Of a stretch of DNA of 57,600 nt, positions 5,351 through 32,458 are shown piece after piece. The first letter of the stretch is position 1, and each line of letters opens with the position of its first letter. The notes beneath the pieces are model-generated. The model was not told the origin of the DNA, made no database searches, and saw nothing but the letters and a program-made list of their open reading frames with translations. A program made the position numbers and the translations under genes. Source of the stretch: an uncultured Candidatus Thioglobus sp. (GTDB taxonomy: Bacteria > Pseudomonadota > Gammaproteobacteria > PS1 > Pseudothioglobaceae); NCBI GenBank assembly GCA_905620445.1, contig CAJQTP010000020.1:1-57600 (forward strand), written 5' to 3'.

Positions 5351-6436
5351 TTATCGAATCTTTATGCTGGCTAAACTAATTAGAACCAAAATCAAGGTAA
5401 TTATCCAGAACCTAACAATAATTTTTGGCTCTTTAAGACCCTTTTTTTCATAGTGATGATGAATTGGCGCCATTAAAAAGAATCTTTTCTGAGTTCGTTT
5501 AAAGTAGCCTATTTGAATAATCACTGATAAGGTCTCGGCAACGAATATACCGCCCATTAGAATTAATAATATCTCTTGGTGAACAATAATAGCGATAACG
5601 CCTAAGATTGCGCCCAAAGATAGCGATCCAGTATCGCCCATAAATATTTCAGCTGGGTAGGTATTAAACCAAAGAAATCCAAAACCAGCTCCTACTAATG
5701 CTGCGCATAATACGAATATTTCACCTGTTCCCGGCATGAATGGCATATTAAGATAGCCCGAGAAATTATAATTTCCCCCAATATAAGCAAAAACTGCCAG
5801 CGCACCACTAATTAAAATAACAGGCATGATTGCTAAGCCATCTAGACCGTCTGTAAGATTGACAGAATTAGAGCTTCCAACAAGTGCAAACCAGCCAATA
5901 ATCAAAAAGGCAAGTGCATTAAGCGGAATAATAAGGTCCTTAAAGAATGGAACTAAAAGTTCTGCGCCAATTGTTTTAGAATTTAAGCTAAGTAGCCATA
6001 CACAAATTAATATTGCACTAATTGACTGCGCTGCAATTTTTTGTCTTCGACTGAGACCATCTGAGTTTTGTTTTTTAATTTTAAGATAGTCATCGATAAA
6101 GCCAATTGAGCTAAAAAGAAGAGCTGTAACAATTACTATCCAGAGGAAGGGGTTGTTCCAGTCTCCCCAGATAAGAACACTGATAAAAAAAGCAAAAAGT
6201 ATAAGTACTCCTCCCATAGTTGGAGTTCCTTGCTTTTCTAGGTGAGTTTCTGGACCGTCCTCACGAACCACTTGACCAATTTGATAGTGCTGTAGTTTTG
6301 AAATAATCCATTTTCCAAGAACTAATGTAATGAGAAGGGCGGTCATCATTGCAAAGACAGCTCTTACAGTTAAATAGCTTAAAACATTAAAGCCAGTATC
6401 TAGTGTGGAAAGGAAGCTTAATATTTCTAGAAACAT
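5351..6436 (-). CDS. mraY: Phospho-N-acetylmuramoyl-pentapeptide-transferase
   Basis: 361 aa polytopic protein; [32 protein letters not shown] and [12 protein letters not shown] motifs. Confidence 0.95.
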
Positions 6437-9197: not shown

Positions 9198-10628
9198 ATG
9201 TCTATAATTTCACAATTAACCAAGGCTTTGCCAAAAAATTCAGTCATATTTGGGGAAGAGAATACTCGCCCTTTCGAATGTGATGGACTTAGTGTTTATA
9301 AACAAAAACCCTTAGCTGTTGCTTTGCCTAGTAACGTTAACCAAATTAAAAAGGTTTTGGAGATTTGTAAGAAAAACAATACTCCTGTCGTTACAAGAGG
9401 CGCTGGAACTGGATTGTCTGGAGGCGCTTTGCCTCTTAAGGACAGCGTCGTTCTTGGGCTTTCAAAGTTAACTCGTGTTATATCTATTGATCTAGAAGCT
9501 CAAACAGCAATAGTTGAGCCAGGAGTGCGTAATATTGCTATTAGTGAGGCAGTTGAAGAGTATGGTTTGTATTATGCTCCCGATCCCTCTTCTCAAATAG
9601 CGTGCACTATTGGCGGAAACGTTGCAGAGAATTCAGGCGGCGTACATTGCCTTAAGTATGGACTAACTGTTCAAAACTTAGAGGCAGTAAAAATATTAAC
9701 AATAGACGGCGAAGAGCTACTTCTTTCGAGACAAGATGAAGGTATGGGTTTACTGGCATTAATGACTGGATCAGAAGGACTCTTGGGCGTTATATCTGAA
9801 ATTACCGTTAAGCTGACTAAAAAACCACAACAAGCAAAACTTATAATGGCCGGTTTTAATAGCGTTAGAGATTGTGCTAATGCAGTTGCATCAATTATTA
9901 AGATTGGCGTCATACCAGCTGGTTTGGAGATGATGGATCAATTTGCTATAGAGGCATCTGAAGCATTTGCTCAAGCAGGATACCCACTTGATGCTAAGGC
10001 ACTTTTACTGTGTGAGTTAGATGGCTCTGAAGACTTGGTAGAAGACGACTTAAATAAAGTAATGGGTATACTTTCTAAAGCGACTTCTGTAAGAGTTTCA
10101 GAAAACGAGGAGGAACGATTACTTTTCTGGAAGGGGAGGAAGTCAGCATTTCCTGCAGTTGGCAGACTGTCTCCAGATTATTATTGTATGGACGGAACTA
10201 TTCCAAAAAGGCATCTTGGTGATGTTCTTGAAAAAATTAATGACCTCTCAAAACATTATGGCCTTAGAGTTGCCAATGTTTTCCATGCCGGTGATGGTAA
10301 TTTACATCCCCTCATATTATATGATGCTGGGAAGCCAGGGGAGTTAGAGAAAACAGAGGCTTTTGGGATGGACATATTAAAGCTTTGCGTTGAAGTCGGC
10401 GGCTCAATAACTGGAGAGCATGGAGTTGGGGTTGAAAAGCTAGATGCAATGTGCCATCAATATAGTGCTGCTGAATTGGATGTTTTTCATCAAATTAAGG
10501 CTGCCTTTGACCCTCATGAACTTCTGAACCCAGGTAAGGCTGTGCCAACTCTTCATCGATGCGCTGAGTTAGGTAATATGCATGTCCACCATGGCAAGCT
10601 ACCTCATCCAGAATTGGAGCGATTCTGA
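9198..10628 (+). CDS. glcD: Glycolate oxidase subunit GlcD (FAD-linked oxidase)
   Basis: TRGAGTGLSGGALP FAD-binding motif, GDGNLHPLILYD, GGSITGEHGVGVEK, FDPHELLNPGK. Start taken at MSIISQL rather than the upstream ATG at 9111. Confidence 0.93.
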   Translation: MSIISQLTKALPKNSVIFGEENTRPFECDGLSVYKQKPLAVALPSNVNQIKKVLEICKKNNTPVVTRGAGTGLSGGALPLKDSVVLGLSKLTRVISIDLEAQTAIVEPGVRNIAISEAVEEYGLYYAPDPSSQIACTIGGNVAENSGGVHCLKYGLTVQNLEAVKILTIDGEELLLSRQDEGMGLLALMTGSEGLLGVISEITVKLTKKPQQAKLIMAGFNSVRDCANAVASIIKIGVIPAGLEMMDQFAIEASEAFAQAGYPLDAKALLLCELDGSEDLVEDDLNKVMGILSKATSVRVSENEEERLLFWKGRKSAFPAVGRLSPDYYCMDGTIPKRHLGDVLEKINDLSKHYGLRVANVFHAGDGNLHPLILYDAGKPGELEKTEAFGMDILKLCVEVGGSITGEHGVGVEKLDAMCHQYSAAELDVFHQIKAAFDPHELLNPGKAVPTLHRCAELGNMHVHHGKLPHPELERF

Positions 10629-25981: not shown

Positions 25982-26581
25982 ATGAAGAGCTCAAACGTTA
26001 TTTATCATCAAGCATCCGTAACTCGGCAAAGACGCAATAAGTTAAATGATCATCACTCAGTTGTTCTTTGGTTTACTGGCCTTTCTGGTTCTGGGAAGTC
26101 GACTTTAGCCCATGCTTTGGAAGAAAAACTATTTCAAAAAGGATGTAGAACTTTTGTATTAGATGGTGACAATATCCGTCATGGTTTAAATTCTAATCTT
26201 GATTTTAGTGAGAAAAGCAGAACTGAAAATATTCGTCGAGTTAGTGAAGTTAGTAAGCTAATGATGGAATCTGGCTTAATTGTAATGACAGCATTTATCA
26301 GTCCATTCAATAAAGATCGTGATAAGGCAAGAAAATTAATTTCTAGTGATGATTTTATAGAAATTTACTGTAAAGCCAGTCTAGAAACTTGTGAATCTAG
26401 AGACGTTAAAGGCCTTTATAGGCGAGCAAGGGCAGGGGAGATAACCAATTATACGGGCATTGACTCTCCTTATGAGGTGCCAGAAAATCCAGAGTTAACA
26501 ATCGATACAGATAATCAAAGTCTAGAGGGATCAGTATCTACTATTCTTAGCTTCTTGAAATCAAATGGAATAATTAACTAG
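25982..26581 (+). CDS. cysC: Adenylyl-sulfate (APS) kinase
   Basis: 199 aa; [79 protein letters not shown]. Confidence 0.95.
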
Positions 26582-26595
26582 CTTAATTATTTTTT

Positions 26596-28410
26596 TTAAT
26601 AAGGCTTAAGGCCATCAATGAGCGGTTGAATATGCGACTCATATTTTTTCCAGTCGTCAGAGCTACCTTGGTACATTTTTTTTCTAACCTGTGATGTGCT
26701 TGCTGTTTTTACAGCTCGCTTGTTAGTGTGAAAATTTAAGCAACTCTCGTCCCACTCTAATTCACAATATTTCAATAATTTTTTAGTTTCTTTTTCTTGG
26801 TTGTTAGTTAAGTCTTCATAATTGATATCATATATTTGATTTGGAAATAATTCATGCCAAAAAATCATAAGTTCTGAATATAATGCATAAAAACTAGCTA
26901 AATCATTTAAATTATAAGCCCATTCATTGCCCTTACCACTGAAGTAGTTTTTATAAATTGACCAGCATACTGCTCTTGCATCTCTTCGTAAATGAATAAT
27001 TTTGGCCTCTGGAAAGGCTGTCAAAATAAATCCAATATATTGAAAATTAAGAGGCCATTTATCGGTAATGATATCTTCATTAATATCAAGATTGGAAAGA
27101 GAGTCTAAGTATTTTTGACGAATAGATAAAAAATACTTTTCAGACAAGTTATTTGTATCTTGAGTTGATGGGTCGGCTAAAATTGAACTAGTGAGATCGC
27201 TTATTGTGCTTAATTCATCTGCTCCATATACTGCATGATGACTTGAAATGATTTGTTCAACTAGTGTTGTTCCTGAGCGAAGCATACCAACAATAAAAAT
27301 TGGGCATTTAAACTGAGGTTCATCTAACAAGTCTTTATTAATAGAAGGAAGGTCATGACTAAAGATTTTTTTAATTAGTGAATGCTTGACCTGATAATCA
27401 TTAATAGAATAATTTAATTGCTCTTTACGAAGGCGATTTCCCTTATTTAAAAACTTAAATAGTACATCTTGATTGTCTAAATCGTCATTCACTTTAGCTA
27501 GAGCAAAATTTATAAATATTTGATCTGATTGGTTGAGATTGCCAGAAGAAAGGAGTGATTTCATTTTAGAAATCTGAATATCATTTTTTTTATATTTTTT
27601 TAATCTGCTTAAATTGAAGTGAGCTTCAGCAAAGTCAGGTTTAACATTGATTGCTTCTTCGTAATGATTTAATGCTTCAACTTCAAGGCCAAGAATTTCG
27701 TATGAAATTCCTAGATTATTAAATGCTTGAGCATATTTTGGGTTAATAGTTACTGCTTTTTTATAATGTTTTATAGCTTCATCAAATTTATCTAGCTCTT
27801 GAGATGCTGCACCAAGGCTATTATGAGCTTCAGCATATTCTGGGCTATAGGCAACTGCCCATTCAAAACTCTTGATTGCAGAGTTTATATAGCCAAGCTC
27901 TAAGGAAATAAGTCCTAGGTTATTATGAGCAGTAGGGTACTCATGTTTAACATTAATTGCTTCTTTATAGTGTTTGATTGCGTTATCAAGCTGATGGGTC
28001 TTTTGAAATGCAACCCCAAGATTATAATGTGCTTCAGCATATTTAGGATTAAGGGCTATTGCCTTTTCAAAGTTATTAATTGCTAAATCAATTGGACCAA
28101 GTCCACTATAACAAGCGCCACTAATATTAAATAGTAATGGATCATTTGGGAAGTCTTTAATTAAAAGTTGATTAGCATATAGTGCTTCTTGGAATTTGTC
28201 ACAAGAGTAGTATTGAATGATTTCATTTAACTGTTCTTGTGTTGGCGTTATTTCTTTTTTTTGGGCTATTTTAGATAGCTCTTTTTTTGCTTCTTGGTTA
28301 TTTGGAAAAGACTTAAGAACAGTTAAATAAATTTTTTGAGCCTCACTTATCTGTCCTTTTTTTTTGAGTTTTTGTGCGCGATTTAAAAGTCGTTGTGTTT
28401 TGATTGTCAT
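26596..28410 (-). CDS. TPR-repeat sulfotransferase (Sulfotransfer_3-like)
   Basis: N-terminal TPR array; C-terminal PAPS-binding PIFIVGMLRSGTTLVEQIISSHH and IIHLRRDARAVCWSIY; C-terminal NKRAVKTASTSQVRKKMYQGSSDDWKKYE. Confidence 0.88.
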   Translation of the reverse strand: MTIKTQRLLNRAQKLKKKGQISEAQKIYLTVLKSFPNNQEAKKELSKIAQKKEITPTQEQLNEIIQYYSCDKFQEALYANQLLIKDFPNDPLLFNISGACYSGLGPIDLAINNFEKAIALNPKYAEAHYNLGVAFQKTHQLDNAIKHYKEAINVKHEYPTAHNNLGLISLELGYINSAIKSFEWAVAYSPEYAEAHNSLGAASQELDKFDEAIKHYKKAVTINPKYAQAFNNLGISYEILGLEVEALNHYEEAINVKPDFAEAHFNLSRLKKYKKNDIQISKMKSLLSSGNLNQSDQIFINFALAKVNDDLDNQDVLFKFLNKGNRLRKEQLNYSINDYQVKHSLIKKIFSHDLPSINKDLLDEPQFKCPIFIVGMLRSGTTLVEQIISSHHAVYGADELSTISDLTSSILADPSTQDTNNLSEKYFLSIRQKYLDSLSNLDINEDIITDKWPLNFQYIGFILTAFPEAKIIHLRRDARAVCWSIYKNYFSGKGNEWAYNLNDLASFYALYSELMIFWHELFPNQIYDINYEDLTNNQEKETKKLLKYCELEWDESCLNFHTNKRAVKTASTSQVRKKMYQGSSDDWKKYESHIQPLIDGLKPY

Positions 28411-28419
28411 TACAAATTT

Positions 28420-30243
28420 TTATTTTTTTAAAAAAGGCTTGAGACCATCAATGAGCGGCTTAATATGCGACTCATATTTTATCCAAGCCTCAGAGCTTCC
28501 TTGGTACATCTTCTCTCTAACTTGTAAAGAGCTCGCTGTTTTGACAGCGCGTTTGTTTTTATGAAAGTTTAGGCAGTTTTCATCCCAATCTAATTCACAA
28601 TACTCTAATAATTTTTTAGTTTCTTGTTCTTGATTAGTAGTTAAGTCTTCGTAGCATATGTCGTAAATTTGTCCTGGGAACTTTTTATGCCAATAATCCA
28701 TCAGTTTAGAATACAGACTATAATATTTAACTAAATCATCGATATTGTAAGAAAATCCATAACCATTGCCACTCCACTTAGATTTATAAATTGACCAGCA
28801 TATTGCTCTAGGATCTCTATTCAGATGAATAACTTTTGCCTCAGGAAGTATAGAAAAAATTAGACCTATGTGTTGGAAATTTGCTGGCGTTTTATCTGTA
28901 ATAATATTAGCAGGGGTATTTAAATGATTAAGGGAGTCTAAGTATTTTTCACGAATTAACGTCAGATTTTTTTTAGAAAGTATTTTTTTATCTTCTGTAT
29001 TAGAAAGCTTACTCTCTAATATTGGGGAGTAGAGCTCCTTTAAAGTACTTAATTCTCCAGCGCCATAAACATTTTTATGGCTAGAAATAATTTGCTCAAC
29101 TAGGCTTGTTCCAGATCGAGGTAAACCAAGAATAAATATGGGGCGTTTAGCATGTGTTTTATATGGCAATGATTTATTAATGGAGTTTGAGCCTATAGCA
29201 AAGATCTCATAAATAATTGAAAATAACCTTTGAGACGTAGTAAAAGAATAATTTAGTTCTTTTTTGCGTAAGCGGTTGCCTTCATTAAGGTAATTAAAAA
29301 ACTTATTAGTATTTCCTAAATCTTCATTAGCATTTGCTAATGCAAAATTAATTGTAATTAGGTTAGATTCACTAACATTTTCGTTACTGAGAAGTAATTG
29401 CATTTTTACAACTTGCTCTTTACTTAAAGTGTACTGCTTGAATAGGCTTAAATTATAGTATGCATCTGCATAATTAGGATCGACCGACAATGCTTTTTCA
29501 AAATATATTATTGCACTATCTATGCTATTTAACTCTTTTTTAGCAAGACCAATATTATTATAAGCATCAGCAAGTTGTGGGTTAGCCGCTAGTGATTTTT
29601 GATAATATTTTATTGCATTTTCAAAGTCCCCACTATTTTGAAAAATAACACCTCGCTGATTAGCAGCTTCTGCATAATTTGGTTTAATAGCTAATGCTTT
29701 ATCAAAGTTTATGCCAGCTTCAAAATCTTTTTGAAGTAGTTTATTTGCAACACCTAAGTTATAGAATGCTTGGGCAAATTTAGGGTTAAAAATTACCGCT
29801 GATTCAAAATGCTTAATAGCAGCATCATATTTCTTAATGATTAAAAGAGCATTACCAAGATTATAATGCGCATTTGGATATTCATTTTTAATACTAATGG
29901 CATTCTTGTAGCTTTTAATAGCCTCTTCAATGAGACCAAGCTCCCGAAGCGTAACCCCAAGATTGTAATGAACTTCGGTATAGTTTGGCTTTAGGGCTAA
30001 AGCTTGCTTAAATTTTTTAACTGCAACATCAAGTTGGTTATTAGCCTTGTAAAAAGAACCACTAACATTAAATAGCAATGGCGCTAGAGGATAATCCTTG
30101 ATTAATACTTCTATTTCAAAAATTGCCTCTTTTTTTTGTCCTTTTGAAAAAGTATCAATAATCGATTGAACAAGATCTTTAGGGGGCTCTTGATGATTTT
30201 TAATATTCTGTAAGTTAATAAGTCTTTTTTTTTGTTTCTTCAT
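28420..30243 (-). CDS. TPR-repeat sulfotransferase (Sulfotransfer_3-like)
   Basis: Same architecture; PIFILGLPRSGTSLVEQIISSHKNVYGAGEL, VIHLNRDPRAICWSIYKSKW, NKRAVKTASSLQVREKMYQGSSEAWIKYE. Confidence 0.88.
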   Translation of the reverse strand: MKKQKKRLINLQNIKNHQEPPKDLVQSIIDTFSKGQKKEAIFEIEVLIKDYPLAPLLFNVSGSFYKANNQLDVAVKKFKQALALKPNYTEVHYNLGVTLRELGLIEEAIKSYKNAISIKNEYPNAHYNLGNALLIIKKYDAAIKHFESAVIFNPKFAQAFYNLGVANKLLQKDFEAGINFDKALAIKPNYAEAANQRGVIFQNSGDFENAIKYYQKSLAANPQLADAYNNIGLAKKELNSIDSAIIYFEKALSVDPNYADAYYNLSLFKQYTLSKEQVVKMQLLLSNENVSESNLITINFALANANEDLGNTNKFFNYLNEGNRLRKKELNYSFTTSQRLFSIIYEIFAIGSNSINKSLPYKTHAKRPIFILGLPRSGTSLVEQIISSHKNVYGAGELSTLKELYSPILESKLSNTEDKKILSKKNLTLIREKYLDSLNHLNTPANIITDKTPANFQHIGLIFSILPEAKVIHLNRDPRAICWSIYKSKWSGNGYGFSYNIDDLVKYYSLYSKLMDYWHKKFPGQIYDICYEDLTTNQEQETKKLLEYCELDWDENCLNFHKNKRAVKTASSLQVREKMYQGSSEAWIKYESHIKPLIDGLKPFLKK

Positions 30244-30286
30244 TTTAAGAGCAGGAATGTAAGTTTAAAAGAATTAAATAGCTTAA

Positions 30287-31000
30287 CTACTGTTTTAAAT
30301 AAGGCTTAAGACCATCAATTAGTGGCTGAATATGTGACTCATATTTTTTCCAAGTCTCAGAGCTTCCTTGATACATCTTTTCTCTGACTTGAAATGAGCT
30401 GGCAGTTTTTACAGCACGTTTATTTTCATGAAAGTTTAGGCAGTTTTCATCCCACTTTAATTCACAATACTTCAATAATTTGCGAGTCTCCTCTTCTTGA
30501 TTATTAGTTAAATCCTCATAACATAAATCATATATCTGATTAGGATAGCGCTCATGCCAAAAGTCCATTAAATCCCTATATAATCCATAAAAGTGCACCA
30601 AATCATCAAAGTTGTTTGAGTATCCATTTGCCTCACCGATGAAAGAGCAAGTAAAGTTTGACCAGCATGTAGCTATAGCATCTCTTTTCAGATGAACAAT
30701 TTTTGCTTCAGGAAATGCTAACAAAATAAATCCGATGTATTGAAAATTTAAAGGCAGCTTATCGGTAATAATTCTATCTGTAGTGTTTAATTGATGAAGC
30801 ATCGCTAAGTATTCTTGACGAACAAATGTAAGAGCCTTTTTACTAAGATGAGTTATATCTCCTTCAATAAAATTTTTTATTATTGGATTTATGAGTTTAG
30901 TTAACGTATTTAATTCGCCTCCACCGTATACTTTATGGTGATTCGAAATAATTTGCTCTACAAGAGTTGTTCCAGATCGGGGCATACCAAGGATACTCAA
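30287..31000 (-). pseudogene. Sulfotransferase domain fragment (3' part of a disrupted TPR-sulfotransferase gene)
   Basis: ILGMPRSGTTLVEQIISNHHKVYGGGEL to the conserved C-terminus. No TPR part; the ORF begins at a TTG inside the inverted-repeat arm. Confidence 0.8.
30527..30625. repeat. 99-bp perfect inverted repeat, arm 1 (inside the sulfotransferase coding sequence)
   Basis: Reverse complement is identical to 30991..31089. Confidence 0.97.
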
Positions 31001-31089
31001 ACAACTTTGATGATTTGGTGCACTTTTATGGATTATATAGGGATTTAATGGACTTTTGGCATGAGCGCTATCCTAATCAGATATATGAT
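30991..31089. repeat. 99-bp perfect inverted repeat, arm 2 (at the break between the TPR and sulfotransferase parts)
   Basis: Begins ggatactcaaacaactttgatgatttggtgcac and ends cctaatcagatatatgat; identical to the reverse complement of 30527..30625; 365-bp spacer. Confidence 0.97.
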
Positions 31090-32458
31090 CAGTAGAATAA
31101 TTTAATTTCTTTTTAAGTAAGCTATTCCCTTCATTTAAGAACCTAAAATATTCAGTAGTATTTTCTAGATTTTTATATATTGTAGCTAAGGCAAGACAAA
31201 GGTGGATCCTTTCTGAATCTTCAAGATTAGCATTTGAGAGAATTGATTTCATTTTTAAAATATGTACATCATTTTCTGAATCATATTTTTTTAAATAACT
31301 TAAGTTGCGATAAGGTTCAGCATTATCAGGGTTAATGGATATAGCTTTCTCAAAGCTTTCGAGTGCAGAGCTTATTTTCCCAGTTTCTTGGTAAGCAATA
31401 CCAAGGTTATTTAATGCTCTAGACTCTGGAAAAATAGATATGGAATTCTTATAGCATGCAATTGCAGCATCAATTTGACCAAGACTTTGATGTGCTACAC
31501 CAAGATTATTATGAGCCTCTTGGAAGTCAGAATGAAGCGCTATTGCTTGATTAAATTGGTGCATTGAAGAATCGACTTCATCAAGTTGAAGAAGAGTTTT
31601 TCCAAGATTATTATGCGCTTCAGCAGAGCTAGGGTTGAGCTCTATAGTCTTCTCAAAATGCGTAACTGCTTCATATAATTGACCAAGGTCTTTGAGGGTG
31701 TTGCCGAGATTATTATGAGCCTCACCATACTCAGGATTAATAGCTATTGCCTTCTCATAACAGTTAACTGCTTCATCTAATTGACCCATTTCTTGGTAAA
31801 TAATTCCAATATTATTTTGAACATTAGCATATTCCGGATTAATGGATAGCGCCTGTGAATAAGAATTAATTGCTTCATCACTTTGTCCGAGTTCATTGAG
31901 GGTATTGCCAAGGTTAATGTGAACCTCAAAATAATCTGGCTGAACACCTAATGCTTTCTTATAGCAGTTAGTTGCCTCATCCAATTGCCCAAGTTTTTGT
32001 AGAACAACACCTAAGTTGTTATGCGCCTCTGCATAGTCTGGATGTGCTTCTATTGCTTGCTCATAAGACTTAACTGCAGCTTCCATTTGTCCAAACTCTT
32101 TGTAAATAACACCAAGGTTATTATGCGCCTTAGCATAGTTTCTATGAATGGCTAATGTCTCTTTATAACACTTAACTGCAGCATCCAGTTGATTGAGTTC
32201 TTGAAATGTAAGTCCAAGGTTGTAATGAGCATCGGCAAATTCAGGTTTAATTTCTAAAGCCTTCTTGAAGCATTTAACTGCCATCTCTAATTCACCCGTT
32301 GTTCTGTAACAAACACCACTGATATTATGAAGTAATGATTCGCCAGGATGATGACTTATTAAAGTTTGAACGTTATCGAGTGCTTCTCCTATATGCCCAG
32401 AAGAATATAGTTCAATTATAGAATTAATTTTATTATTTAAAAGAGGCTCCATGCTCAT
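31073..32458 (-). pseudogene. TPR-repeat protein truncated before its sulfotransferase domain (5' part of the disrupted gene)
   Basis: ~11 TPR units, then FLNEGNSLLKKKLNYST, which in the intact paralogs leads into the sulfotransferase domain. Here it enters inverted-repeat arm 2 and stops (HISD*). Confidence 0.78.

Follow-up and report, generated by a model that had tools for sequence, protein, structure and literature searches.

The question raised by this locus is how a perfect 99-nt inverted repeat came to lie within a TPR-sulfotransferase (TPR-ST) gene, and whether it arose by mutation in an ancestor of the cell or during preparation and assembly of the sequence. The window, i.e., the stretch of DNA analysed here, is a whole contig of 57,600 bases (C20) that contains no N and belongs to a draft genome whose 52 contigs total 906,769 bases, with an estimated completeness of 54% and contamination of 0%.

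The inverted repeat and the broken gene

The arms of the repeat are reverse complements over 99/99 nt (100% complementary), with a 365-nt spacer and a start-to-start offset of 464 nt, and the match ends abruptly, as not one further base pairs at either end of the arms. Recomputed coordinates and complementarity therefore bore out the earlier note, which had described an exact 99-bp inverted repeat with a 365-bp spacer. The chance expectation from base composition for perfect inverted repeats of at least 99 nt in the window was ~10^-48. Perfect inverted repeats of ~16 nt are the size expected by chance in the window, and the 99-nt pair is the only one longer than 18 nt. The features of the locus, all read on the minus strand, are as follows:

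26596–28410 (minus): TPR-ST paralog in tandem (P0003), intact, 604 aa with a 37-codon linker (translation, Pfam)
28420–30243 (minus): TPR-ST paralog in tandem, intact, 607 aa with a 37-codon linker (translation, Pfam)
30287–31000 (minus): sulfotransferase-domain part (3') of the broken gene, 237 aa when read from an internal TTG (Sulfotransfer_3, E = 1.6e-39)
30527–30625 (minus): arm 1, source copy, native sulfotransferase coding sequence (arm comparison, alignment with paralogs)
30626–30990 (minus): spacer, 365 nt, native sulfotransferase sequence in native orientation, beginning at the PAPS-binding loop (ILGMPRSGT)
30991–31089 (minus): arm 2, inverted copy in place of the native linker, with an in-frame TAG (arm and ortholog comparison)
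31073–31075 (minus): TAG within arm 2, the only in-frame stop of the 723-codon TPR-ST frame (translation)
31073–32458 (minus): TPR-domain part (5') of the broken gene, 461 aa, with ...KKKLNYSTDHISD as its last residues before the TAG of arm 2 (translation, Pfam TPR)

The two parts of the gene form one TPR-ST reading frame of 723 codons (32458–30287, minus strand) with a single internal in-frame stop. The 3' part matched Sulfotransfer_3 (PF13469) with 136.9 bits against a curated cut-off of 27, and no ribosome-binding site was evident before its internal TTG. Arm 1 encodes SNNFDDLVHFYGLYRDLMDFWHERYPNQIYD and aligns with both neighbouring paralogs (607 and 604 aa), in agreement with its earlier assignment to the sulfotransferase coding sequence in situ. 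Arm 2 follows the TPR part, which closes with ...KKKLNYS, and precedes the PAPS loop; in this place the linker of the broken gene comprises 33 codons, TAG included, and lacks the P(I/V)F with which the linker ends in other TPR-ST proteins. These alignments identify arm 1 as native and arm 2 as foreign. Little function need be lost through the break, since the other two members of the tandem family at this locus are intact.

The native linker in relatives and the rarity of the repeat

Comparison of the same locus in relatives, a check that the earlier note had proposed for close ones, revealed intact TPR-linker-ST genes in two genomes of related species. Genome G024 has the same gene order, with an RluD-type pseudouridine synthase, a 229-aa TPR protein and TPR-ST proteins of 687 and 597 aa, all intact, and the closed genome G040 carries an intact 691-aa TPR-ST gene near the same RluD gene. 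Judged by such related loci, the draft genome belongs with the marine SUP05 gammaproteobacteria, FRAM18_bin301 (“SUP05 cluster”) and a single-cell genome, AG-313-C04, being among the nearest named matches. The linker of both orthologs comprises 34 codons, compared with 33 at the broken gene, and spans 28–38 codons across all TPR-ST proteins collected from these and more distant genomes. Identity of the broken gene to its closest ortholog, that of G024, was 60% in the TPR part and 61% in the sulfotransferase part, but only 16% in the linker, and both edges of arm 2 fall near the edges of this poorly conserved linker. This drop in identity, together with the near-equal linker sizes, indicates that an inverted 99-nt stretch of downstream sequence took the place of ~100 nt of native linker (102 nt against 99 nt), the frame being kept and the net change being ~−3 nt. 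The orthologs thus support the earlier placement of arm 2 at the TPR-to-PAPS-loop linker as well as the proposal that a linker of near-equal length had been exchanged for an inverted copy of downstream sequence.

Among perfect inverted repeats of at least 20 nt in 794 kb of the same genome, no other was found except one 20-nt palindrome. With no second case of this kind, the assembly is not riddled with fold-back errors. When mismatches were allowed, with a limit of 5 kb, no comparable repeat was found in two closed relatives (420 kb and 400 kb sampled), in 418 kb of the single-cell assembly AG-313-C04 or in 70 kb of other relatives' loci, and the one further high-scoring pair was the L118 match described below; the sampling of relatives amounted to ~1.3 Mb in total. 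The repeat itself was not found in phages or in 29 genomes of the genus, its recurrence in independent genomes having been named earlier as an argument against a recent accident, and the exact junction sequences had no match in IMG/VR.

Given 99 matching positions out of 99, divergence can have reached at most ~1.5% per site per arm (95%), and gene conversion between the arms could have kept them identical for longer. A very recent origin of the repeat is consequently likely but not forced, and the earlier wording, “very recent or artefactual”, was somewhat overstated in view of what 99 identical bases can establish.

Template switching or artefact

The best explanation of this structure, to which we would give an even chance, is a single replication template-switch mutation of the four-point kind (pattern 1-4-3-2) in an ancestor of the cell. 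During synthesis through the TPR-ST gene, the growing strand would have come off its template where the linker begins or ends and been extended by 99 nt read in reverse orientation from a source 365 nt away, with either its own just-made part, folded back, or the single-stranded sister strand as template, before returning to the original template at the opposite linker edge. The outcome would be the deletion of ~100 nt of native linker, the insertion of an inverted 99-nt copy and a gene broken by the in-frame TAG. The strand being synthesised at the switch cannot be told from the sequence.

Two features of a four-point switch are seen here: the insert is the reverse complement of nearby sequence (99/99 nt, 365 nt away), and the ancestral state without the inverted copy is seen in G024 and G040, intact and with 34-codon linkers. 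The return junction joins the arm end ...GAGTATCC to native ...(TTT)ATCCTTGG; the arm ends in TATCC, and related genes read TTT-ATT-(C/G)TT at this place, so that microhomology of 4–5 nt (TATCC) is probable there, the true native bases having been lost. At the other junction, where the native bases are likewise lost, 1–3 shared bases are possible. The remainder of the gene is open, which was counted in favour of a real mutation. At the same time, the segment is long for this class of mutation and is known from one draft assembly, and the net change of ~−3 nt, with breakpoints that lie close to the two ends of the variable linker, is odd for a random event.

Artefacts, taken together, are nearly as likely as a real mutation. 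A de Bruijn assembler should not invent two new few-base junctions from intact molecules, so an artefact would need chimeric molecules or a gap-filling step. In the case of gap filling, the variable linker would have remained unassembled owing to strain variation and the three tandem paralogs, and the gap of ~100 nt would have been filled with an unturned mate read from ~460 nt downstream. Several features of the repeat fit such an error: the 99-nt arm has nearly the length of a 100-nt read, the strand inserted is that which a raw reverse mate would present, the 464-nt offset is near the usual insert size, the replaced and inserted sizes are near equal (102 and 99 nt), and both edges of arm 2 adjoin those of the poorly conserved linker. 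Furthermore, 99 is a common assembler k; the contig ends, checked for a fixed overlap from which the assembler k might be deduced, shared none. However, the ends would need to be joined on ~1–5 shared bases, arm 2 is without similarity to the native linkers of the orthologs, the window is free of N, and the 794 kb held no second case. We know of no specific program that makes such an error and regard this origin as unlikely, though less so than a chimera formed during amplification or library preparation.

Such a chimera, produced by phi29 multiple displacement amplification (MDA) or by fold-back at end repair, would have had to dominate local coverage. In an E. coli study (PMC1855051), inverted joins with an intervening deletion made up 85% of MDA chimeras; the joined segments mostly lay <10 kb from each other, and short complementarity primed most of the joins. 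Each single junction here resembles such a join. The likeness extends to the nearness of the joined segments, the deletion and the short complementarity, but MDA chimeras are described as single joins (PMC1855051), whereas here two joins flank a 99-nt insert, and two switches within 99 nt would be required instead of one. The genome is probably a metagenome bin, because its contigs are unsorted by size, unlike those of the single-cell assembly AG-313-C04, and in a metagenome bin amplification chimeras should be a minority of reads; the 418-kb sample of AG-313-C04 itself was without a comparable perfect repeat. For these reasons, we consider an amplification or library chimera quite improbable. 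The earlier note had set a fold-back switch against an amplification or assembly chimera; these were the right two candidates, and the sequence at hand does not separate them.

A functional invertible switch was also considered, in which recombination between the 99-nt repeats would flip the 365-nt spacer and so switch the gene on or off; arms that enclose a coding segment as perfect inverted repeats can recombine with each other. The spacer, however, is already in its native orientation, and the TAG in arm 2 interrupts the gene all the same; no recombinase was found among the ten neighbouring proteins tested, and the repeats are absent from every relative searched. A phase-variable switch was rejected, as the stop belongs to arm 2 and not to the spacer that would invert, and flipping would not mend the gene; we hold this origin to be extremely improbable.

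The event is thus either an artefact or a mutation of a known kind, among the longest of its class, and it is no new biological system. Two classes of local template switch are the most frequent, one of them the 1-4-3-2 pattern, which leaves one new inverted repeat, and the copied segments in great apes have a median of 12 nt and a maximum of 128 nt (PMC7954356). As in the four-point switches of Loytynoja and Goldman (PMC7954356), native sequence has given way to an inverted copy of nearby sequence, and one perfect inverted repeat results, but the present segment of 99 nt, with its source 365 nt away, is bacterial and known from a draft assembly. Quasipalindrome template-switch mutagenesis in E. 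coli (PMC7202029) likewise involves replication fold-back with inverted copying. The E. coli events, however, perfect a pre-existing imperfect repeat (PMC7202029), of which there is no trace in the paralog or ortholog linkers here. A pre-existing imperfect repeat perfected by switching was rejected for this locus, since the paralog linkers matched the inverted sulfotransferase part no better than shuffles did; arm 2 scored only 14–16 against the ortholog linkers. Long perfect inverted repeats inside coding genes are also found in the mitochondria of Nematomorpha (PMC6649704), where they are numerous and both arms encode conserved protein, whereas the present repeat is a single case in which arm 2 disrupts the gene.

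If the template switch was real, the locus offers a clean bacterial example of a long local switch with a native state known from orthologs of the same locus, and it shows one route by which accessory genes with tandem paralogs are lost. That a genuine bacterial switch left an inverted patch of ~100 nt, nearly preserving length and frame, and that it hints at longer fold-back patches passing mostly unnoticed in bacterial replication, is a tentative and somewhat doubtful proposition. If, on the other hand, the repeat is an artefact, it marks a quiet class of error that produces false pseudogenes in draft genomes and can be recognised by arms of about one read length lying about one insert distance apart.

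Neighbouring genes and related loci

An APS kinase gene (25982–26581, plus strand) adjoins the tandem TPR-sulfotransferase genes (26596–32458, minus strand). APS kinase makes PAPS, the sulfate donor, and this gene content suggests a small sulfation locus. The PAPS loop of P0003 reads IVGMLRSGT, compared with I(V/L)G(M/L)PRSGT in relatives, and this P-to-L change may affect activity.

In G040, the TPR-ST gene is followed by a gene for an 831-aa TPR protein (L112, 9881–12376, minus strand), the C-terminal half of which resembles O-GlcNAc transferase by eye. In the single-cell genome AG-313-C04 (G042), positions 5896–5967 and 9461–9532 of locus L118 form an 81% inverted match over 72 nt between TPR-ST genes in opposite orientations, and this locus may be prone to rearrangement.
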